Position numbers and translations under genes: made by a program | The notes under the pieces: generated by a model | What the model was told of the DNA's origin: nothing | The model's input: only the letters and a program-made list of their open reading frames with translations | The model's database searches: none | Shown: piece by piece, positions 2,589-15,172 of the stretch | How positions within the stretch are numbered: the first letter of the stretch is position 1 | Layout of the letters: each line of letters starts with the position of its first letter | Assembly: GCA_016783285.1 (NCBI GenBank) | Contig: JADHWW010000044.1 | Span: 1 to 16,476 of the forward strand | Source of the DNA: Anaerolineae bacterium | GTDB taxonomy: Bacteria > Chloroflexota > Anaerolineae > B4-G1 | Direction: 5' to 3' | Length of the DNA stretch: 16,476 nucleotides

Positions 2589-2903
2589 ATGTCAAAAACG
2601 ATTAGTGGCACGGCGAGTAGCGAAATGCTGCTATGGGAATTTGATCGAAATACATTAGTGTTCTTGGACACTTTGGCTCGGATGCGCTCCCTGGTGCCCA
2701 CCCTGAACCAGAAAAGGGTTGAGCGTGTGCAGCGGGACGTCGAGCAGTTGCGTCTGGATGCACTGACAGCCGAGTTTCGGGAAGCGGTACCGGATATTGA
2801 ACCGGACTATGAACTGCTAAAACTTGTGGGGATCAACCCTGCAGGTACTGTGGAGGAAGACGGAATGCGGCTGCGCCAGGCTTTGGAGGAGCGGTTCAGA
2901 TGA
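2589..2903 (+). CDS. Putative antitoxin of the PIN toxin
   Basis: A 104-residue, charged, soluble protein that I do not recognise as a named family. It is called an antitoxin by position: it precedes a PIN-domain ribonuclease gene and overlaps it by four bases (ATGA), the usual sign of translational coupling in type II toxin-antitoxin pairs. The middle (about residues 43-65, QKRVERVQRDVEQLRLD and onward) looks helical, and the C-terminal half is acidic. No clear ribbon-helix-helix, AbrB or Phd motif was seen at the N-terminus. A very strong Shine-Dalgarno AAGGAGGAG (2577-2585) precedes the ATG. The gene begins 31 bases after sppA and may be co-transcribed with it. Confidence 0.75.
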   Translation: MSKTISGTASSEMLLWEFDRNTLVFLDTLARMRSLVPTLNQKRVERVQRDVEQLRLDALTAEFREAVPDIEPDYELLKLVGINPAGTVEEDGMRLRQALEERFR

Positions 2904-3337
2904 TTCTGGTAGACGTCAACGTGATCGAAGATACGCTGGAGAAGCGCAAAGGGTGGAAGCAAAGTCTGGCTGTGCTGACTTTGGCACGGCAAAGGAGAGT
3001 AGCGGGGGCCATCTCGGCACTGACCGTGCCAATTCTCTACTTTCTGCAACACAAGCCAGATGATATCGCCCGCGTCAATGTACAGGTAGCGATCAAGACC
3101 CTCGTCATCGTTGATCTCACCGCCACTATCATTGCTGCCGCCTTTGCCGAGCAACGCACAAATGACTTTGAGGATGCGATTCAGTTCTACTCTGCAAAGG
3201 AGGCGGGCGCAGACATCATTGTGACCCGCAACAAGAGACACTTTCGCGGATTCGAGAAAGAAATTCAAGTACAGTCGCCAGAAGAGTTTCTAAAGGAATG
3301 GAGGAGGAACCGGTCAGCCAGCGTAGGAGCGCGGTGA
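2900..3337 (+). CDS. PIN-domain ribonuclease toxin (VapC-like, PIN_3 type)
   Basis: A 145-residue protein with the PIN_3 layout: LVDVNVIED at residues 3-11 (metal-binding Asp5), then NDFEDAIQFYSAKEAGADIIVTRN (88-111) with acidic residues Asp89, Glu91 and Asp92 and the typical TRNKRHF end. PIN domains are Mg-dependent RNases, and as toxins they cleave tRNA or mRNA until the antitoxin neutralises them. The usual second acidic residue after the ISALT segment is not evident (TVPILYF). Its target here is unknown. The last residues (SVGAR) and the TGA stop are encoded by a 27-bp palindromic repeat (3323-3349), so the native C-terminus may have been altered by repeat insertion. Confidence 0.88.
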   Translation: MILVDVNVIEDTLEKRKGWKQSLAVLTLARQRRVAGAISALTVPILYFLQHKPDDIARVNVQVAIKTLVIVDLTATIIAAAFAEQRTNDFEDAIQFYSAKEAGADIIVTRNKRHFRGFEKEIQVQSPEEFLKEWRRNRSASVGAR

Positions 3338-3349
3338 CCGCGTCCCTAC
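3323..3349. repeat. 27-bp palindromic repeat, copy 1
   Basis: Left arm GTAGGAGCGCGGT (3323-3335) and right arm ACCGCGTCCCTAC (3337-3349) pair except for two adjacent mismatches. The same element occurs perfectly at 5250-5276 and nearly perfectly at 7322-7348. This copy holds the TGA of the PIN gene (3335-3337) and, on the other strand, the TAG of the M23 gene (3346-3348). The stem could block or terminate transcription from both sides, but no U-tract follows it. Confidence 0.9.
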
Positions 3350-4557
3350 GCCGGCGTCGTCGAGACGTACCACGCCGCCACCCATCCCCGCTGGCCCTCC
3401 GCCGTTTCCACATAGAGCCATTCGTCGTACCGGCCCACCAACACCCGCGCACGCTCTGGATCGTCGTGTATCGTGAGCGGCGCGTTGTGCGCCAGACGCT
3501 CAATGAGGTTGGCTTTGACCGTGGGCCGCTCGCGCACGTTCATATCCTCGACGGGATAGACGGTCAGTAACGTCTCCGGCGCCGGGCCAGGCTCGGTCTG
3601 CACGTACCAGGCGGCGATGTATCCTTTGCACCCGCGCTGCCCTGAACCTGTCGCTTGCACTGAGCCCAGTCGAAGTGAAGGGTCGGGGAGGCGCACCCGC
3701 AACCACTCACCCCGGTCGCCCAGCCTCGCCAGCGCAACCTCCCGGTCGCCGATGACCGTCAGCGGCTCGTGGGGCAGGGCGATGGCGATGCGGCTACTAC
3801 CTGTCGAGGCCCCCTTGCGCACGTTCAGCGCTTCGGTGGCGTAGACGGTCAACGGGCCAGCCGGCGTCGGGCCGGGGGGTTGCAATTGGAGGTACCAGGC
3901 GGCCACGAAGCCGTCCGTCCCATCGGCGCGCTGCACCTGGATCCACTGCCCATGCTGACCGACCCTGGCGCGGGCGGTATCGGCGTCGCCCAGCACGGTG
4001 ATCGCTTCGCCCGTGCCCAGCCACGCCAGTTGCTCAGAACCGGTCGTCGGGCCGGCGCGCAGCCGCACCTGGTCGGCAGTGTAGACGATGAGGCCGCTGG
4101 GGGCGGGAACCTCGACTTCCTGAAGATAGGGCAGCGGGTCTATCACCCCGTTCGGGTAGCCAGGCGTTTTGGCGCCGATCAACTTGAGGGTGAAATGCAG
4201 GTGCGGGCCAAAGGTGTGGCCCGTGAGCCCGGCCAGCCCGATCAGTTCGCCGGCCATCACGCGCTGGTACCTGGAGACCAGCGCCCTGGACAGGTGGGCG
4301 TAGATGGTGTGATATTCGCGGCCATTGACCCGGTGCCGGATGCGCACGTGGAGGCCGTAGGCATTACCGTCGTTGGGCCGGATGTCGAACACCTCGCCGT
4401 CCGCGCAGGCATAGATGTTGGCCCCGACAGGCGCTCGAAAGTCGAGCCCCTCGTGACCGGCCTGGTTATACTTGGCATAGATGTGTGGGTTCTCGCCAAA
4501 GTACTGCGTGATGACGTGATCGTCTACGGGCCACCGCAGCCTGAATTTGCTGGTCAT
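3346..4557 (-). CDS. M23 peptidase with three SH3b domains
   Basis: Zinc endopeptidase of the LytM/lysostaphin type, expected to cut peptidoglycan cross-bridges. The M23 domain (about residues 1-145) keeps all ligands: His35 and Asp39 in GHEGLDF, His88 in YAHLS, and His119/His121 in GPHLHF. Three bacterial SH3 domains follow (about 156-227, 236-320, 332-400), each ending in an AAWY motif; such domains bind cell wall. The second SH3b has 16 extra residues (291-306) that its siblings lack, encoded by a 48-bp repeat. No signal peptide or membrane segment is visible, so its export route is unclear. The ATG at 4557 has GGGAGGG 5 bases upstream. It is paralogous in its M23 part to the glycosidase-M23 fusion at 13199-15172. 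Confidence 0.92.
   Translation of the reverse strand: MTSKFRLRWPVDDHVITQYFGENPHIYAKYNQAGHEGLDFRAPVGANIYACADGEVFDIRPNDGNAYGLHVRIRHRVNGREYHTIYAHLSRALVSRYQRVMAGELIGLAGLTGHTFGPHLHFTLKLIGAKTPGYPNGVIDPLPYLQEVEVPAPSGLIVYTADQVRLRAGPTTGSEQLAWLGTGEAITVLGDADTARARVGQHGQWIQVQRADGTDGFVAAWYLQLQPPGPTPAGPLTVYATEALNVRKGASTGSSRIAIALPHEPLTVIGDREVALARLGDRGEWLRVRLPDPSLRLGSVQATGSGQRGCKGYIAAWYVQTEPGPAPETLLTVYPVEDMNVRERPTVKANLIERLAHNAPLTIHDDPERARVLVGRYDEWLYVETAEGQRGWVAAWYVSTTPA
3640..3687 (-). repeat. 48-bp in-frame insertion inside an SH3b domain
   Basis: Aligning the three SH3b domains of the surrounding gene by eye shows that only the second carries this 16-codon segment between its W-x-x-V strand and the final AAWY motif. 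It contains a 29-base word (3654-3682) that recurs in opposite orientation at 11706-11734 with three mismatches. The shared word, read on the minus strand here, starts CCCTTCACTTCGAC and ends CAAG. Confidence 0.85.
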
Positions 4558-4628
4558 AATTCCCTCCCTGAGAACACGGATCGGCAGGATTGGCGGATCA
4601 TGCGCGTCTAACTGCTTATTATGCCACG

Positions 4629-4656
4629 ATTATACTTCCCCTACGCGGCCTGTCAA
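4629..4656 (-). promoter_or_regulatory. Sigma-70-type promoter of the M23-SH3b gene
   Basis: On the minus strand, a perfect -35 TTGACA (4651-4656) and a perfect -10 TATAAT (4629-4634) are separated by 16 bases. The start codon at 4557 is about 70 bases downstream. The -35 box contains the TGA stop codon (4653-4655) of the upstream ligase-fusion gene, so the M23 gene can be transcribed independently of it. Confidence 0.8.
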
Positions 4657-7600
4657 ACGAGAGATGGCCCGGCGTCCGACGGCGAGACAGCGTGTGCTCG
4701 TTGGGCCAACGCCAACGTCAGGAAAAATACCAGCGCCAGGTCGGGGAAGAACAGTGTATTGTCCACCAGGCCGTGGGCCAGCATTGCAGCCATGCTGCCG
4801 ATGAGGCCAATGGAAACGCTCAAAGCCCCTACCTTTGGGCTTTGGGCTTTACGACTTGCTGATTCGCTGACTCGCTGACTCGCTGACTCGCTGACTCGCC
4901 GATTCGCTGATTTGAAAAATGCCACCTGCACTGCCACCCCCGCTAAAAGTCCCAGGATCCCCATCCGCGTCCAGTGGTCCAGGTAGACGTTGTGCGGGTG
5001 CCCCAGGTTGAACTCTTGCCAGGCGGAGGGGAGCACGTAGCGGGTGCGATAAACGGCCAGAAAGTTGCCCGGCCCGACGCCGAACCAGGGATGCTCGCGG
5101 ATCAGCGTCAGGCTACTGCGCCACAGTTCCAGCCGGAAGAAGGTGCTTCCCTGTTGCAGATCGAACAGCGAGGCGAAGCGCGGCAGGTGCAAGAACAGCG
5201 GAATGAGCGCCAGTCCGCCGGCCGCGACGAGCGCCAGCGCCGCCCAGCGGTAGGGGCGCGGTGACCGCGCCCCTACCCCGGCCCGCCAGCCCATCACCAA
5301 TAGCGCCGCCGGCAGTGCCAGAAGAAGCGCCCCCCGTGAAAAGGTCAGCCCCAGCGCTGGCGTCACCACCAGCAGCGCCAGCGCGTAGAGCGCCCGCCGC
5401 CGTCCCCGCGCCCCCCATAGCGCGACGGCCACGAGCAGCGGCCACACTCGTTCCAGATACAGCCCCGCGCTGTTGGGTGAGTGGTAGACGCTTTGCAGGC
5501 GCAGCAGCCCCCCCTCGGCGAAAACGACGTTGCGCCCCAGCGCGTACTGTGCCAGCCCGATGAGCGCCACTGCGACGCCACCCAGGACAAAGCCGTCTAC
5601 AATCCGCCATCTGGCCCGGCCGTCCAGACGAGCCATCCGTAGTAGCGCATAGTACAGCGCCGGGAGCAAGAAAACTGTCCACAGTTCAAAGATCGCCGCC
5701 CACCGGTCATCGGCGGCAAGGCTTGCCGCGAGCACCGCCAGTATCAGCAACAGAACAGAGCGGTCAGTTGGAGAGATTCGTAGGTTCGTAGATTCGTAAA
5801 TTCGTAGATTCGCAATTCCCACCCCCACCCCACACAACACGACCAGCGCCTCCGGCAGGCTGAGCGCCCGGTAGAGCATGTTGCCGGGGTGCAGATAAAA
5901 CGGCGCGGTGAAGGCGACTAGCGTCGCTCCCAGGTCAGGGCGCAGCGCGAAGAGGGCGGCCAGCGCGGGCAACGTCAGCAGGCTGGCGACGAGCCACGAA
6001 CTGCCCCAATCCCGGCCCCAACTGGCGCCGGCGGTGGCCCAGAGCAGGGCGGTCAGTCCCACGATTAGTGCTACCTGCGCCCACTCGGGCCAGGCGAGGA
6101 ACTGTTGGGTCAACGCGGCCCAGTCCACCCGCCGCGCATCGCGCACCAACAGCGCTGCCAATACCAGCCCGGCCCCGATCAGCCCGACTATCTTCCAGCC
6201 GAAGTCGTCGCGCACCGGCTCCGCGCCCACGCGCCAGTCCACCAACGCCCACTGGCCCTGCCCCCTCTCGGCCACGACCTCGACGGTGTGCGGGCCGGGG
6301 GGAAGGTCAGTTGCCAGGGGGACGGTCACGACGGCGGGGGTATTGTCGTAGAGCACGACGTAGGCGCGGCCTGTTTTGTCGCGGGGGAGAGCGTGGGCCG
6401 GTTCCCCGTCCACCGTGACGTAGAGAAAGGCGCGGTACGGTCCCCGCCGCACCGTCAGCGCGACGGCCGGGCCATCGAAGCGGAAGGTGGCCCAGTCGCC
6501 GCTGGAACCGACGTCGGCGCCCAGCGGCCCCACGCGCCAGCCGCCCTCGTAGGTCGCCCAGGGATTGAGCGCCGGGTAGCCGCCGGCGGGGGCAGCATCG
6601 GGAAGCGCGGCAGCCCAGGCCGCCACCGCGTCGTAGAGCGGGCGGGGAGCGTCGTCTCGTCCAATCAGCGCAAAGCCCCAGTGTGGATCGTCGAGAGGAA
6701 CAGCGGGCTGCAAGTGGTCCAGGAAAAACGCGCCGGCCCAGGGCCACTCGGCCCGCGCCCGCTCCAGTGCCGCGACGGTGTGTGCCGCCTGCGTCGTCTC
6801 GTCGGTCTGTCCCCACACGGAAGGCGCGCCCGTCCAGGTGGGCGGCAGCGCGTTCCATCCCCATTGGCTGGCCCATACGGCCTTGTCCGCGTCGCCGTGC
6901 CTGACCATCACCTCTCGCAGGAGGAGCACCCGCGAAAAGTTCAGCACGGTCTCGTCAACGCGACGGTCGTCGGGGCCGGTGTTAAAGCCGTAGGGCTTGC
7001 CGGCTACGATGTCAAAGTGGGGCGCGGCCCCCGCCTGGTAGAGTTGCTCTAAATAGCGCACGTCGCTCAAGTTCTGCGGGCCGGTCTCGACGGTGGGGGC
7101 CAGGCCGGCCAGGAGGATGCGGGAGTCGGGATCGGCGGCGCGGATGGCGCGGGCGGTGCGGGCCAGGAGATCGGCGTAGGCGGGCGGGTTGACGGGGCCG
7201 CCGCCCCAGTGGGCCGCCAGGTTCGGTTCGTCCCAGACCTGGTAATAGTCCACCTGTGCGCCATAGCGGGCGGCGAAGGCACCGGCGAAAGCGGCGAAGC
7301 GGTCGGGGTCGGCAGGTGGAGGCAGGGGCGCGGCGACCGCGCCCCTACAGTCGTCAAGCACGGCCACCGGTCGCAGTTCAGGGTGGCGGGCCAGCGCGGC
7401 CATGATGCGGTCGGGAACTGTCCAGTCGAAGCGGTGGGGCAGACTTTCCAGTCTGCCACCCAGACAGGCTAGAAAGCCTGTCCCACAACTGGGCTCGATC
7501 TGGCTCCAGTAAAAGGGCTGGCGCACCCAGACAAAGCCTCCCTCGACGATGCGGGTCAGGGCGGCCTCCAATCCCTCATCGTCGTACTGCTCCAGCGCGA

Positions 7601-7772
7601 CGTTGACGCCGAGGATGGGCACGCCGGCCTCGGCCACGGGCGCGGGGAAGCCATCGGGGAGGTCCCGCGTGCGGGTCTGGTGGGCCACGATGACGGACTG
7701 CGCGGCCAGCCCGACGGCGATCAGCAAGACCAATTGGATTGTAGTGCAGAGTTGATTCAGTGGACGTTTCAC
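4653..7772 (-). CDS. Glycosidase-like / O-antigen-ligase (Wzy_C) fusion protein
   Basis: A 1039-residue membrane protein. After an N-terminal transmembrane helix (about residues 9-31) comes a (beta/alpha)8 glycosidase-like domain (about 50-395) with the acid/base motif VWDEPN (Glu182). The expected nucleophile site reads WASQWGW, so Gln303 stands where related enzymes have Glu; hydrolysis may be lost. A beta-rich domain follows (about 400-520), then about a dozen hydrophobic helices (525-1025) with Wzy_C/O-antigen-ligase features: SVYHSPNSAG, REHPWFGVGPGNF and GHPHNVYLDHW. The ligase part would polymerise or transfer surface polysaccharide outside the membrane. GTG at 7772 is chosen because GGAGAG lies 7 bases upstream; GTG at 7787 has no such site. 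At least five repeat elements lie in frame within the gene. Confidence 0.88.
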   Translation of the reverse strand: MKRPLNQLCTTIQLVLLIAVGLAAQSVIVAHQTRTRDLPDGFPAPVAEAGVPILGVNVALEQYDDEGLEAALTRIVEGGFVWVRQPFYWSQIEPSCGTGFLACLGGRLESLPHRFDWTVPDRIMAALARHPELRPVAVLDDCRGAVAAPLPPPADPDRFAAFAGAFAARYGAQVDYYQVWDEPNLAAHWGGGPVNPPAYADLLARTARAIRAADPDSRILLAGLAPTVETGPQNLSDVRYLEQLYQAGAAPHFDIVAGKPYGFNTGPDDRRVDETVLNFSRVLLLREVMVRHGDADKAVWASQWGWNALPPTWTGAPSVWGQTDETTQAAHTVAALERARAEWPWAGAFFLDHLQPAVPLDDPHWGFALIGRDDAPRPLYDAVAAWAAALPDAAPAGGYPALNPWATYEGGWRVGPLGADVGSSGDWATFRFDGPAVALTVRRGPYRAFLYVTVDGEPAHALPRDKTGRAYVVLYDNTPAVVTVPLATDLPPGPHTVEVVAERGQGQWALVDWRVGAEPVRDDFGWKIVGLIGAGLVLAALLVRDARRVDWAALTQQFLAWPEWAQVALIVGLTALLWATAGASWGRDWGSSWLVASLLTLPALAALFALRPDLGATLVAFTAPFYLHPGNMLYRALSLPEALVVLCGVGVGIANLRIYESTNLRISPTDRSVLLLILAVLAASLAADDRWAAIFELWTVFLLPALYYALLRMARLDGRARWRIVDGFVLGGVAVALIGLAQYALGRNVVFAEGGLLRLQSVYHSPNSAGLYLERVWPLLVAVALWGARGRRRALYALALLVVTPALGLTFSRGALLLALPAALLVMGWRAGVGARSPRPYRWAALALVAAGGLALIPLFLHLPRFASLFDLQQGSTFFRLELWRSSLTLIREHPWFGVGPGNFLAVYRTRYVLPSAWQEFNLGHPHNVYLDHWTRMGILGLLAGVAVQVAFFKSANRRVSESASQRVSESASRKAQSPKVGALSVSIGLIGSMAAMLAHGLVDNTLFFPDLALVFFLTLALAQRAHAVSPSDAGPSLV
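4822..4913. repeat. 8-bp-unit array inside the ligase gene, with adjacent small hairpin
   Basis: Seven contiguous 8-bp units cover 4858-4913 (GCTGATTC, four GCTGACTC, GCCGATTC, GCTGATTT). On the coding strand they give an eight-residue periodic peptide, RVSESASQ-RVSESASR, in a loop between predicted membrane helices near residues 957-974. Just beside it AAAGCCC (4822-4828) pairs with GGGCTTT (4837-4843), which encodes the following KAQSPKVGAL stretch. Confidence 0.9.
5250..5276. repeat. 27-bp palindromic repeat, copy 2 (perfect)
   Basis: GTAGGGGCGCGGT (5250-5262) and ACCGCGCCCCTAC (5264-5276) are exact reverse complements around one central base. The copy is in frame in the ligase-fusion gene and encodes VGARSPRPY in a loop between two membrane helices (about residues 833-841). 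Confidence 0.95.
5775..5814. repeat. 8-bp-unit array inside the ligase gene
   Basis: Five contiguous 8-bp units: GATTCGTA, GGTTCGTA, GATTCGTA, AATTCGTA, GATTCGCA. The coding strand gives NLRIYESTNLRIS in a loop between hydrophobic segments near residues 655-667 of the fusion protein. The period is the same as in the other arrays of this window, but the word is different. Confidence 0.9.
7322..7348. repeat. 27-bp palindromic repeat, copy 3
   Basis: The sequence matches copy 2 except at two positions (a C in place of T near the left end, and a C in place of T next to the centre). It encodes CRGAVAAPL in the glycosidase-like domain of the ligase-fusion gene (about residues 142-150), a different reading frame from copy 2 in the same gene. 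Confidence 0.9.
7433..7486. repeat. Double-hairpin repeat element inside a coding region
   Basis: Two adjacent perfect stem-loops: CAGACT/AGTCTG with loop TTCC (7440-7455) and ACAGGCT/AGCCTGT with loop AGAA (7464-7481), flanked by GTGGGGC-like and GTCCCAC-like ends. The segment encodes CGTGFLACLGGRLESLPHRF in the early glycosidase-like domain. The two-stem structure is what one expects of a REP/BIME-like intergenic element, yet it is translated here. Confidence 0.85.
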
Positions 7773-7912
7773 GGTGGCGCTCTCCACACGCAGGTTTGGG
7801 AATAGGGGACATAGCCGGCCCCGTTACACATTAACACTTTTGCACATTAGAGTTATCTTGTAACACTCGAATGAGTCTGTCAAGCATCTTGGCCAGCAGA
7901 TTGGACCCACAG

Positions 7913-8030: not shown

Positions 8031-8417
8031 ATGATTGACATTGGAAAACAAATCGCCTACTGGCAAACGGGAGCCGCTGAAGGTTGGGAAATAGCACAAG
8101 AGTTGATTAACGGCAGAAGGGTACGTCACGGTCTATTCTTCGCTCATCTGACCCTGGAGAAAATACTCAAAGCTCACGTATGCTGTCATATCCACGATCT
8201 AGCCCCCAGAATTCACAATCTGGTCAGGCTGGCTGACCTGGCTGCGCTTTCCTTGAACGTAAGCCAGGTAGACCTGCTGGCAGAAATGAACGCTTTCAAT
8301 ATTGAAGGACGGTATCCGGATCTACTTATGCCTCCACCTTCCTTGGACGAAGCAGAGGATTACTTGCGCCGCACGGAAGAGGTATACCAATGGTTGATGA
8401 ATCAATTGCCAGGATAG
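8031..8417 (+). CDS. HEPN-domain protein (toxin of HEPN-MNT pair)
   Basis: A 128-residue, mostly helical HEPN protein of the PF05168/COG2250 type. Recognisable parts are FFAHLTLEKILKAH (36-49) and the following PRIHNLVRLADLA block, typical of the family's helix-3/loop region. HEPN proteins paired with minimal nucleotidyltransferases form toxin-antitoxin systems in which the HEPN partner is usually an RNase. The RxxxxHxY catalytic motif of the DUF86/HepT branch is not present; an R32-x6-H39 spacing can be seen, but its role is uncertain. GAGAGG lies 8 bases before the ATG. The next gene starts inside this one, giving a 28-base overlap. Confidence 0.85.
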   Translation: MIDIGKQIAYWQTGAAEGWEIAQELINGRRVRHGLFFAHLTLEKILKAHVCCHIHDLAPRIHNLVRLADLAALSLNVSQVDLLAEMNAFNIEGRYPDLLMPPPSLDEAEDYLRRTEEVYQWLMNQLPG

Positions 8418-8719
8418 TCAGACAATACTTGCGAAATCTCATCAAACAGGGCATCCCCGTTCAACACGGGGTCGTCTTCGGCTCTCAAGCGCGTGGTCAT
8501 CCCGATACCTGGAGCGATATAGATTTGCTGGTGGTTTCACCACGGTTTGATAATGAGCGCAAGCGGGCGGACGTGAATCTCCTCTGGCACGTTGCCGCCC
8601 GCACCGATAGCCGCATAGAACCGATTCCAGTTGGACAGCGCCAGTTTGAAAAAGACGACAGCAGCGCCATCATTGAGATTGCCCGCCGCAAAGGTCAAAA
8701 GATATTCCTCACGGCCTGA
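8390..8719 (+). CDS. Minimal nucleotidyltransferase (MNT) antitoxin
   Basis: A 109-residue DNA polymerase beta-type nucleotidyltransferase. The signature GSQARGHPDTWSDIDLLVVS (31-50) holds the Gly-Ser pair and the metal-binding Asp43 and Asp45. A third acidic residue, Glu77 (RIEPIPV), is in the right place. In studied HEPN-MNT systems the MNT enzyme neutralises the HEPN toxin by transferring AMP groups onto it. GGAAGAGGT (8375-8383) precedes the ATG by 6 bases, inside the HEPN gene, so translation is probably coupled. Its 3' end overlaps the tail of the convergent MFS gene by 25 bases. Confidence 0.9.
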   Translation: MVDESIARIVRQYLRNLIKQGIPVQHGVVFGSQARGHPDTWSDIDLLVVSPRFDNERKRADVNLLWHVAARTDSRIEPIPVGQRQFEKDDSSAIIEIARRKGQKIFLTA

Positions 8720-11705: not shown

Positions 11706-11734
11706 CCCTTCACTTCGACAAGGCTCAGTACAAG
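11706..11734 (+). repeat. Second copy of the 29-base dispersed word
   Basis: Starts CCCTTCACTTCGAC and ends CAAG; it matches the inserted segment in the SH3b gene (3654-3682, opposite strand) at 26 of 29 positions. Here it lies between genes. Confidence 0.8.
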
Positions 11735-12120: not shown

Positions 12121-12160
12121 ATTTCCCAATTTCCCAGTCTACCAGTTTCCCAATCTACTG
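12121..12160. repeat. 8-bp-unit array at the 3' end of the AbiEii gene
   Basis: Five 8-bp units: ATTTCCCA, ATTTCCCA, GTCTACCA, GTTTCCCA, ATCTACTG. The words are the complements of those after tyrS (TTGGGAAA, TTGGTAGA). The TAG stop of the AbiEii gene (12139-12141) and its last residues SRLGNW lie inside the array. Confidence 0.9.
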
Positions 12161-12828
12161 ACTTTGGGATCCAGCCGGTCCAGCATCTCGTTGGCAATGG
12201 AGGTGAAAAAAGACCGCAGCGTTAGTAGATCAAGCGGCTTTCTCATCTCCGGAAGACGGGCAAGTTTATTGACCTGGAGTAACGCGCCTGTGAAGTGAAA
12301 TTCGATCAAGCCCAGGTCCTTCTGCTGGGCCTTGGTGAAGAGTTCTTCAAAATCATATCCGGCCTCCAGAATAAAGTACAGATCCACGAAATCCTTGCTG
12401 CTGGTCCGCCCCAGAATGGCCGTGACCTTGTTGGCGCCGATATTCTCAATAGTGTCAACAATGATACCGCCGATCACTTCCCGTTGGCCATACTGGGGGC
12501 CGAACTCGTGCACCATATCTACCTGAAGCACCTCTTCCTCATTCTCATTGGCCTGGGATGTAAACAGGAACTGCCGAAAGTGCTCCGCCCTTCTGGCGCG
12601 CTTTATGCCCCAGCCCAACCGGGATGCCATCTCCTCGATGCAACGGTCAACCTCTGCCAGTGCGTCGTCGTCATGTGTAAACAGGTCCAAATCGTCGCTC
12701 AGGCGATGATGCAAGTGAAAGGCCGCCAGAGCCGTCCCACCGGTCAAGAAGAAGCGTTGGCCGACAGGAGCAGCGAAAAAGTGCTCCAGGAAGGTACGTT
12801 GTAAGGGTGTCAGGAATTCGTTAGGCAT
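12139..12828 (-). CDS. AbiEii/AbiGii-type nucleotidyltransferase toxin
   Basis: A 229-residue protein of the AbiEii (PF08843) family, toxins of type IV-like abortive-infection systems that use a nucleotidyltransferase fold; studied relatives modify tRNA ends. The core motif FLTGGTALAAFHLHHRLSDDLDLF (27-50) has the Gly-Gly-Thr loop and the metal ligands Asp46 and Asp48; Asp104 (LQVDMV) is a likely third carboxylate. GANKVTAILGR and SSKDFVDLYFI (143-153) are also typical. The gene starts two bases after its upstream partner and is surely co-transcribed with it. The last six residues come from an 8-bp repeat array, so the C-terminus may differ from relatives. Confidence 0.92.
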   Translation of the reverse strand: MPNEFLTPLQRTFLEHFFAAPVGQRFFLTGGTALAAFHLHHRLSDDLDLFTHDDDALAEVDRCIEEMASRLGWGIKRARRAEHFRQFLFTSQANENEEEVLQVDMVHEFGPQYGQREVIGGIIVDTIENIGANKVTAILGRTSSKDFVDLYFILEAGYDFEELFTKAQQKDLGLIEFHFTGALLQVNKLARLPEMRKPLDLLTLRSFFTSIANEMLDRLDPKVSRLGNW

Positions 12829-13198: not shown

Positions 13199-15172
13199 TC
13201 AGAATTTCCCCAGCCGCGCCACCAGTTCCTGCGGCGTGTCCGCCACGAGCGCGACGTAGATGACGCCTGGGTAATACGTCTCGAAGAAGGCGGGCAAGCC
13301 GTCGCCCCAGGCGGTGGTATTGACGGCGACGACGCGGCGCGTGTCCAGGTCGCCGATGCCGGCGTCGTCGGCGCTGCCGCCGATGGTGAAGCGGTGCGTG
13401 TCCCAGCCCCCCTCGACGACGGCGCTGGCCCAGGCGTCGCCGGCTCCCGGTGGCAACAGTACATAAGTGCGGTCGTAGGGCACGCGGGGCTGCCCTCGGG
13501 GCGATGGGGGCTGCGGAGGCGGCTGGGCCGGCATCTCCGGCAGGGCCTCCAGCGCGGCCCGCAGCGCGCTGGGGCTCTCCGCCTCCACGGGCACGTAGAT
13601 GACGCCTGGGTAGTAGGTCTCGAAGAAGGCAGGCAGGCCGTCGCCCCAGGCGGTGGGGTTGACGGCGACGACGCGGCGCAAGTCCAGGTCGCCGATGCCG
13701 GCATCGTCGGCGCTGCCGCCGATGGTGAAGCGGTGCGTATCCCAGGTCGCGCCCACCACTGCCTGCGCCCAGGCCGCGCCGGCGTCCGGCGGGAGCAGCA
13801 CGTAGGTGCGAGAGTAGGAAACGCGGGGTTGTCCCCGTGGCAGCGGGTCGAGGTAGGGGCGCGGGTTGAGATAGTCGGCGTTGGCGGGCAGTTTCAACCC
13901 CTCGATGTACAGCGAAAGGTGCAGGTGGGGGCCACTGGTCGCGCCTGTCATGCCAGCGGTGCCGATCACTTGCCCGGCCTGCACCGCCTGTCCCTCCTCC
14001 ACCGGCACGTCGGTCATGTGAGCATATAGCAGCGTCACCTGTCCCACCCCCTCGACCTGGCTGCGGACGTAGACGTGGTGGCCGTAGCCGGTCTCGATCA
14101 TCTTCTTGCGGGTGACGACGCCGTCCAGGCAGGAGCGGATGGGGGAACTGGACGGATCGTCGTACTTGACGTGCATGTCCGCGCCGTTGTGACCGCCGTG
14201 CAGCGAGTGGGCATAGGAGGTATCGTAATAACTCTGCTGGTTCTCGCCGTAGAACTGGGTGTAGTGGCGGAACTCGGTGGGCCAGGTGAAGCGCATCGCA
14301 GCGGGCGGAGGCATCGCAGCGCGCGCCGCGACTCGGGCGACGACCGGGCGAGGCTGCCCTTCGGCATCCATCCAGACCTGCGAGGCATAAACGGGATCGG
14401 GCGAGCGGAGGATGAAGGCGTAGGCGGCCTGGATGCGCGGCCAATACGCCTGGTACCAGGACCAGTCGTAGCGGCACTCGTCGTACTGGGCGCAGGCAAA
14501 GTAGAACTCGGCGTACTGGTCGCCCTTGACACCGCTATTGGTGTTGGGGTTGACGTTGGCAAACTCGGAGACGACCAGTGGGATGGTCGGAAAAGTCTCC
14601 AGGTATCGGCGGATAAAGCGCATGCCGCCGTCGAAGGCGCGCAACCCCTGGGCGCTGTCCCAATAGACGTGGCAGCAGACGAAGCCGGCTGTCTCTATGG
14701 CATCGGCGCAGGCCGTCAAGAAGGCAGTCTCTCCCTGCGGGGAAGACGAGAGGCCGGGAAAGCCCGCTCGTACCTGTGGCCCAAAAGTCGTCTCAAGCGT
14801 TTCCGCGACGGTGACGAACCAGTCGCCGAACGCGGCGGCGCTATCCCAGGAGACGCCGTACCCGCGTCCAGGCAAGTTGGGTTCGCCCTGCACCTCAAAG
14901 TCATACACGCCGGCCTGGACGAACGTTTCCACCGCCGGGGCAAAATAGTCCACGAACTCTTGGGGAGAAGTGGGACGCTCGCCCGGCTCTGGGCTGAGGA
15001 GTTGGACCAGGAAAGTGTGGACGCCGATGTCCCGATAGGCGGACAGGTCAGAGGCCGGGTTGGCGATAGCCCGCAGTTTGAGCGCCTCCAGCCTGGCTTG
15101 GCGGATGATGTCGAGGTCGGCCGGGGTGGCAGGGCCACTCCCGACCAGTAGTCCGGCTTTGGCATAAGACAT
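13199..15172 (-). CDS. Glycosidase-M23 peptidase fusion with duplicated C-terminal modules
   Basis: A 657-residue, probably bifunctional cell-wall enzyme. Residues about 1-280 form a glycosidase-like (beta/alpha)8 domain with acid/base Glu97 (VQGEPN) and nucleophile Glu203 (VVSEFAN), both intact. Residues about 295-445 are an M23 zinc peptidase with His328 and Asp332 (GGHNGADMH), His385 (LYAH) and His416/His418 (GPHLHL). Two unnamed modules follow (446-531 and 559-642), offset by exactly 113 residues and nearly identical, including WDTHRFTIGGSADDAGIGDL. Similarity this high implies recent duplication or gene conversion. No signal peptide is visible at MSYAKAGLLVGSGP. AGAGGT lies 5 bases before the ATG. 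It follows the amidase gene and an 8-bp array. Confidence 0.88.
   Translation of the reverse strand: MSYAKAGLLVGSGPATPADLDIIRQARLEALKLRAIANPASDLSAYRDIGVHTFLVQLLSPEPGERPTSPQEFVDYFAPAVETFVQAGVYDFEVQGEPNLPGRGYGVSWDSAAAFGDWFVTVAETLETTFGPQVRAGFPGLSSSPQGETAFLTACADAIETAGFVCCHVYWDSAQGLRAFDGGMRFIRRYLETFPTIPLVVSEFANVNPNTNSGVKGDQYAEFYFACAQYDECRYDWSWYQAYWPRIQAAYAFILRSPDPVYASQVWMDAEGQPRPVVARVAARAAMPPPAAMRFTWPTEFRHYTQFYGENQQSYYDTSYAHSLHGGHNGADMHVKYDDPSSSPIRSCLDGVVTRKKMIETGYGHHVYVRSQVEGVGQVTLLYAHMTDVPVEEGQAVQAGQVIGTAGMTGATSGPHLHLSLYIEGLKLPANADYLNPRPYLDPLPRGQPRVSYSRTYVLLPPDAGAAWAQAVVGATWDTHRFTIGGSADDAGIGDLDLRRVVAVNPTAWGDGLPAFFETYYPGVIYVPVEAESPSALRAALEALPEMPAQPPPQPPSPRGQPRVPYDRTYVLLPPGAGDAWASAVVEGGWDTHRFTIGGSADDAGIGDLDTRRVVAVNTTAWGDGLPAFFETYYPGVIYVALVADTPQELVARLGKF
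13221..13860 (-). repeat. Tandem 339-bp duplication in the glycosidase-M23 gene
   Basis: The two C-terminal modules of the fusion protein repeat with a 113-codon (339-bp) period. Long stretches are identical or almost identical at DNA level, for example the segment reading gccgatggtgaagcggtgcg on the plus strand, at 13379 and again at 13718. A proline-rich linker (PAQPPPQPPSP) joins the modules. Boundaries are approximate. Confidence 0.88.

Follow-up and report, generated by a model that had tools for sequence, protein, structure and literature searches.

GTAG-ended palindromes read in frame within an O-antigen-ligase-like protein of an Anaerolineae bacterium, and their probable relation to double-foot REPs

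The window analysed here is the whole 16,476-nucleotide stretch of Anaerolineae bacterium contig JADHWW010000044.1, and its relevant features are listed in the table. A scan of the whole window for 27-mers with at least 11 of 13 positions paired found such sequences at 3323, 5250 and 7322 only, which confirmed the repeated palindrome that an earlier note on this DNA had placed there. Pairing is perfect in 5250-5276 alone; two positions remain unpaired in each of the other copies, 3323-3349 and 7322-7348. The arm GTAGGGGCGCGGT, allowed up to two mismatches, matched the window seven times, and six of these matches are the arms of the three palindromes; shuffled controls gave a mean of 0.81 and a maximum of 4 matches (200 shuffles). 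The seventh match, at 13853-13865, falls where an M23 peptidase gene encodes NPRPYL; it lacks the second arm and was taken as chance. The earlier note had given one arm for all copies; this arm is exact on both sides of one copy but on one side only of another. In copies 1 and 2 the 5' foot matches GT[AG]G and the 3' end matches C[TC]AC; one end of copy 3 is GCAG. The predicted folding energy was -16.3 kcal/mol for copy 1 and -25.0 kcal/mol for the perfect copy.

Table. Palindromes, genes and other repeats of the window discussed in the text.
Feature	Position	Strand	Remarks
Putative REP copy 1, GTAGGAGCGCGGTGACCGCGTCCCTAC	3323..3349	.	between converging genes
Putative REP copy 2, perfect 27-bp palindrome	5250..5276	.	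- strand reading VGARSPRPY, residues 838-846
Putative REP copy 3, GCAGGGGCGCGGCGACCGCGCCCCTAC	7322..7348	.	- strand reading CRGAVAAPL, residues 147-155, codons 7323-7349
PIN_3-domain gene	2900..3337	+	stop codon within copy 1
M23 peptidase / SH3 gene	3346..4557	-	stop codon within copy 1
Host gene, 1044 aa, O-antigen-ligase-like	4653..7787	-	Wzy_C (O-antigen ligase) domain, residues 804-949
In-frame insert of host gene, TGFLACLGGRLESLPH, two short hairpins	7434..7481	-	
In-frame 8-bp tandem array (NLRIYESTNLRIS), host gene	5772..5810	-	
In-frame 8-bp tandem array (NRRVSESASQRVSESASRK), host gene	4848..4904	-	

Copy 1 supplies the stops of both genes that converge on it, TGA at 3335-3337 for the PIN gene and TAG at 3346-3348 for the M23/SH3 gene. 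Analysis of the consensus element in its six frame and strand readings revealed three open and three closed ones. Offset 1, which starts with TAG, is closed on both strands, as is offset 0 where the centre reads TGA; offset 2 is open on both strands, and so is offset 0 where the centre reads TCA. Each of the two coding copies takes a different open offset, and copy 1, as the end of genes, uses closed ones. The earlier note was right that two copies are read in different frames of one gene (VGARSPRPY from residue 838, CRGAVAAPL from residue 147) and that both readings are free of stops, the host gene using two of the three open readings. This frame pattern would be expected from the survival of random insertions, and gives no evidence for a frame preference of the element itself.

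In the AlphaFold model of the host protein, residues 147-155 are predicted to form a coil between a strand (139-145) and a helix (161-175), and residues 838-843 to lie between two helices (818-837 and 844-867). The mean pLDDT of this model is 60.9, so it was used solely to place the insert residues. Peptides resembling the insert at 7434-7481 occur at other positions in the homologues P0034 and P0041. Peptides of the ALSTSKG, PSTSLRAG and PSTGSGQA types recur at several sites of the host protein among homologues P0007-P0108; we read them as one repeat in several frames. Elsewhere in the window, a CTTGCACTGAGCCCAGTCGAAGTGAAGGG-type repeat is present twice in opposite orientation (90%), at 3654-3682 (within the M23/SH3 gene) and at 11706-11734, and 13210-13502 and 13549-13841 are 293-nt direct repeats (79%) in a 657-aa peptidase-like gene. 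Two toxin-antitoxin-like loci were also seen, a HEPN gene adjoining a nucleotidyltransferase gene (8031-8719) and an AbiEii-type nucleotidyltransferase gene (12139-12828).

The host protein was compared with the best 120 of 736 homologues, drawn from 7993 scored candidates, and with a genome collection in which 80 host loci were kept out of 297 and the best 40 rows per site were compared. Site A is the position of copy 3, site B that of copy 2, and sites C and D are further positions in the host protein. In the comparison with the best 120 homologues, extra residues resembling copy 3 were found at site A in the window protein, in its twin P0001 and in P0002, P0008 and P0012, and ones resembling copy 2 at site B in the window protein, P0001, P0002, P0004, P0006, P0008, P0009, P0012, P0013 and P0017. 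Other extra residues were present at site A in P0028, P0032, P0039, P0059, P0072, P0075 and P0077, and at site B in nine rows between P0027 and P0096; the GGITAPL of P0032 may represent a decayed copy. Both inserts were absent from the best 40 genome rows per site, and none of these rows encodes the same residues without the palindrome. The palindromes of sites A and B are insertions read in frame, as the earlier note had proposed, and at these positions they are absent from most homologues. The same peptides are present at other sites of the host protein in other homologues.

The insertion is not, however, the clean nine residues that had been expected, since the net gain is six residues at most host sites. 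At sites A and B the seven closest genome rows each have 69 bases against 87 in the window, a net gain of 18 rather than 27. The protein counts, which include only rows fitting the anchors, gave a modal length of 8 residues at site A (72 of 93 rows) and 14 in the four carriers. Site B has 3-4 residues in 24 of 33 rows and 10 in eight rows, one of which (P0038) holds another insert. Site C has 2 residues in 31 of 35 rows, and site D has 10 in 56 of 84; P0004 and P0006 have 8 and 16 residues at these two sites, respectively. As exceptions, P0017 gained five residues at site D, and in P0042, P0046, P0051 and P0108 the peptide replaces eleven residues, so that two are lost on balance. In locus L001, the counterpart of P0042, the DNA contains the imperfect 27-bp palindrome.

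A quick tree of 60 rows, built with the insertion-site columns excluded, required three changes each for sites A, B and D and one for site C. P0003, a close relative of the window protein, lacks inserts A and B. On this tree, repeated gain, gain combined with loss, and recombination would be indistinguishable.

The element was also found in other proteins. Pfam was run on ten ORFs from 66 palindrome-centred loci and assigned a family to nine of them, L083 being the one without; at three of the 66 loci (L112, L125 and L167, none among the ten ORFs) the locus sequence taken differed from the copy that had fetched it. In L105 (HsdM), L161 (polysaccharide synthesis) and L166 (PMT_2) the element falls within the matched domain itself; in L113 it separates two Usp domains, and in L100, L110, L118 and L170 it occupies another part of the frame. 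L109 has a possible wrong start. Of the 23 homologues that cover the HsdM site, 11 are at +18 with a 28-bp element, two at +15, one at +24 and one at +9, and the remaining eight have extra sequence of their own. Among these extras, those of L212 and L217 include GTAGGGGC-type sequence, whereas L223 has a different palindrome, L211 a PSPSPARGGG-type repeat, L221 tandem repeats and L229 a CCTGAGCGAAGTCGAAGG-type repeat. Close HsdM homologues, 82-87% identical, show filled and empty states of one loop, which makes the footprint of REP insertion measurable. The methylase of L100 has a local gain of five residues relative to L307, and at this very position L327 has a further variant of the element. 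In both the HsdM and the DNA methylase loops, different elements occupy the same loop in different genomes. A clear empty site was not found for L161, whose closest homologue is 57% identical, and homologues of the Usp linker of L113 were too variable for a net length.

With the exceptions given above, a net +18 bp was observed at five sites, namely A, B, C, D and one HsdM loop. The value comes from comparison with homologue DNA (56-71% identical) at sites A and B, from proteins only at C and D, and from the HsdM loop comparison. For an element of 27-28 bp, this net gain means that about 9-10 bp of target were lost. We infer that about nine target bases were removed by the chemistry of insertion itself, though later trimming of the loop may also account for the +18 bp. 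A wider reading, which we regard as doubtful though worth stating, is that double-foot REPs swap for about nine target bases, with a nearly constant net gain of 18 bp, and that a few loops are landing grounds shared across Chloroflexota, which repeatedly accept unrelated families of short repeats in frame.

The hairpin family was surveyed in 50 genomes reached via host-gene homologues, with titles naming Chloroflexota, Anaerolineae and their kin, and one (G006) a PVC group bacterium. The pattern GTAGGGGC-N6-16-GCCCCTAC, with a variable stem, gave 398 copies in 32 of the 50 genomes and 8 in the reversed control. Copy numbers were highest in G042 (118) and G045 (108), and the element is mostly 27-29 bp long. 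The 27-mer of the window, at up to two mismatches, was found in 22 of 298 genomes in the class of the closest sequenced genome (G001), so that the sequence is indeed repeated elsewhere. In the fetched loci, 67 strict copies had 49 distinct inner stems, in which 81% of positions are paired against 31% when permuted; the stem sequence appears to change while the hairpin is kept. Around the termini of 75 copies, direct repeats were not in excess (2-nt, 6 against 3.9 expected; 3-nt, 0 against 1.4; 4-nt, 1 against 0.5), hence no signal of target duplication. The target consensus of the 75 copies consists of a mild T (42%) ahead of GTAG only. Two more pairs lengthen the stem in 16 of these copies (5.5 expected), and the element may thus really end a little beyond GTAG and CTAC.

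In related genomes the hairpin is linked to genes of REP-associated tyrosine transposases (RAYTs). A Y1_Tnp model matched 14 of the 22 genomes searched from the 50, and two RAYT queries found matches in 157 and 169 of the 298 genomes. A RAYT gene is flanked on each side by a GTAGGGC-type hairpin in L143, and the hairpin lies within the frame in L106, L121 and L145; the model detects L143, L145 and L140 but misses L106 and L121. A near-perfect GTAG hairpin was present inside the RAYT frame in 14 of the 30 best loci, and any such hairpin in four of 60 controls, two of these four being the queries' own insert; the wrong frame was picked in L240 and L243. Under a wider rule (arms up to 110 bp apart, one mismatch each), the frame contained an arm pair in 39 of 45 distinct RAYT loci and in 6 of 58 controls, from which the two query loci had been dropped. 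These controls are HsdM and Usp homologues rather than random loci, and several of their pairs are loose matches. Of the remaining RAYT loci, two had a pair elsewhere in the locus and four had none; L289 yielded no frame. Both queries contain the element, so the best matches may be biased toward carriers. Arm pairs numbered 59 per 101,491 bases in RAYT loci (L231-L260) against 30 per 1,355,372 in host-gene loci (L001-L080). Some pairs lie between the HuH and Y motifs and some elsewhere in the RAYT frame.

Among the 45 RAYT loci, NH[IFV]H was found in 33, WQ in 40 (anywhere in the frame, a loose test), YIxNNP in 11 and the relaxed YIxxNP in 40. G001 has a RAYT gene with one hairpin inside and another 28 bases beyond the match. 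In five genomes chosen after the inserts had been seen, 11 of 40 strict copies fell within RAYT match spans. Dispersed copies in G047 mostly differ in the inner stem from those inside its RAYT gene. G045, with its 108 copies, had no Y1_Tnp model match, yet the two RAYT queries gave 10 and 9 matches in it. RAYT-like and hsdM-like genes are often no more than a few kb apart (G045:C210, G137:C314, G147:C1, G176:C2, G178:C111 and others), which may be chance; in G045 the two match spans are separated by 54 bases. In the window itself, six RAYT proteins gave no match better than E 0.37 and Pfam found no Y1_Tnp domain in 16 proteins; the cognate enzyme was therefore not seen there.

Taken together, the palindromes are very probably non-autonomous double-foot REPs, most likely moved by a RAYT and filtered by tolerant loops, open frames and a length divisible by three. 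The element, with GTAG at both ends whichever strand is read, would reside in an Anaerolineae-type Chloroflexota bacterium that encodes the RAYT, a single-tyrosine HUH transposase, elsewhere in its genome. This enzyme would recognise the hairpin and its GTAG foot in single-stranded DNA, and then copy or move the element to new sites. New copies would land broadly, and those surviving in genes would be the ones in a tolerant loop, with an open frame and a net length change divisible by three. Presumably a RAYT acting on single strands also moved the copies of the window.

The in-frame reading within unrelated proteins and a window without a RAYT would also suit a family of its own, similar to the Rickettsia palindromic elements and spreading selfishly in frame without any RAYT. 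GTAG at both ends, a length of 27-29 bp and enrichment in RAYT genes of related genomes are, however, REP-like, and make such a family very unlikely. The same GTAG and double-foot features, with the RAYT linkage, argue against the earlier suggestion of an independent invention beside the Rickettsia elements. Local template switching, which would have made perfect palindromes from pre-existing short inverted repeats with no insertion at all, could account for a net gain smaller than the element at most host sites, and the uninserted site B of L005, GGGCGGTACCGC, is already partly palindromic. But local conversion would not yield the same family at unrelated sites in many genomes, and we consider this explanation highly improbable. 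Least probable of all, in our judgement, is that regulatory or terminator hairpins were retained for their function, with the coding copies as by-products. Such a role would agree with the stable fold of copy 1 and its place between converging genes, but no T-tract terminator was found in 3200-3500, an Rfam search of the window gave zero matches, and the copies within the host gene vary between homologues.

With the double-foot REPs as the preferred reading, the known systems can be compared. According to PMC6006769, double-foot REPs (TnpAREP subclass 2.4) are abundant in Cyanobacteria and Bacteroidetes and scattered in other phyla. PMC6006769 and PMC3733652 show that in-frame REPs within RAYT and other genes have already been published. 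PMC3733652 describes 24 GTAG families; Chloroflexi (T. roseum GTAG-23) are one of several phyla with GTAG REPs, several species have REPs inside genes, and some REPs provide TAG stops. No other paper on this family in Chloroflexota proteins was found by title and abstract opening in searches of the open PMC literature. The present work extends in-frame insertion of double-foot REPs to Chloroflexota proteins, and shows one protein family as the recipient of several repeat families in several reading frames. Peptides of the VGARSPRPY and VGAQRRCAPT types in annotated proteins are translated mobile DNA and not conserved motifs.

As in the subclass 2.4 REPs of PMC6006769, the element has a GTAG foot with its reverse complement at the other end and is inserted in unrelated genes; it differs from them in its occurrence in Chloroflexota and in RAYTs with YIxNNP in 11 of 45 and YIxxNP in 40 of 45. 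It shares with the GTAG REPs, as described in PMC3733652, its length, the GTAG tag, the TAG stops provided to neighbouring ORFs, the location between convergent genes and the intragenic copies. In those REPs, however, GTAG stands at one end and is unpaired, whereas here it pairs with CTAC. What is new in the present case is an insertion that departs from a clean nine-residue gain, together with loops that hold different elements in different genomes. Like the Rickettsia palindromic elements, the palindromes are read in frame within many proteins. RPE-4 and RPE-6 are classed as CGTC-tagged REPs in PMC3733652, which calls RPE-1 longer; by this description RPE-4 and RPE-6 are set apart from the GTAG-tagged element found here.
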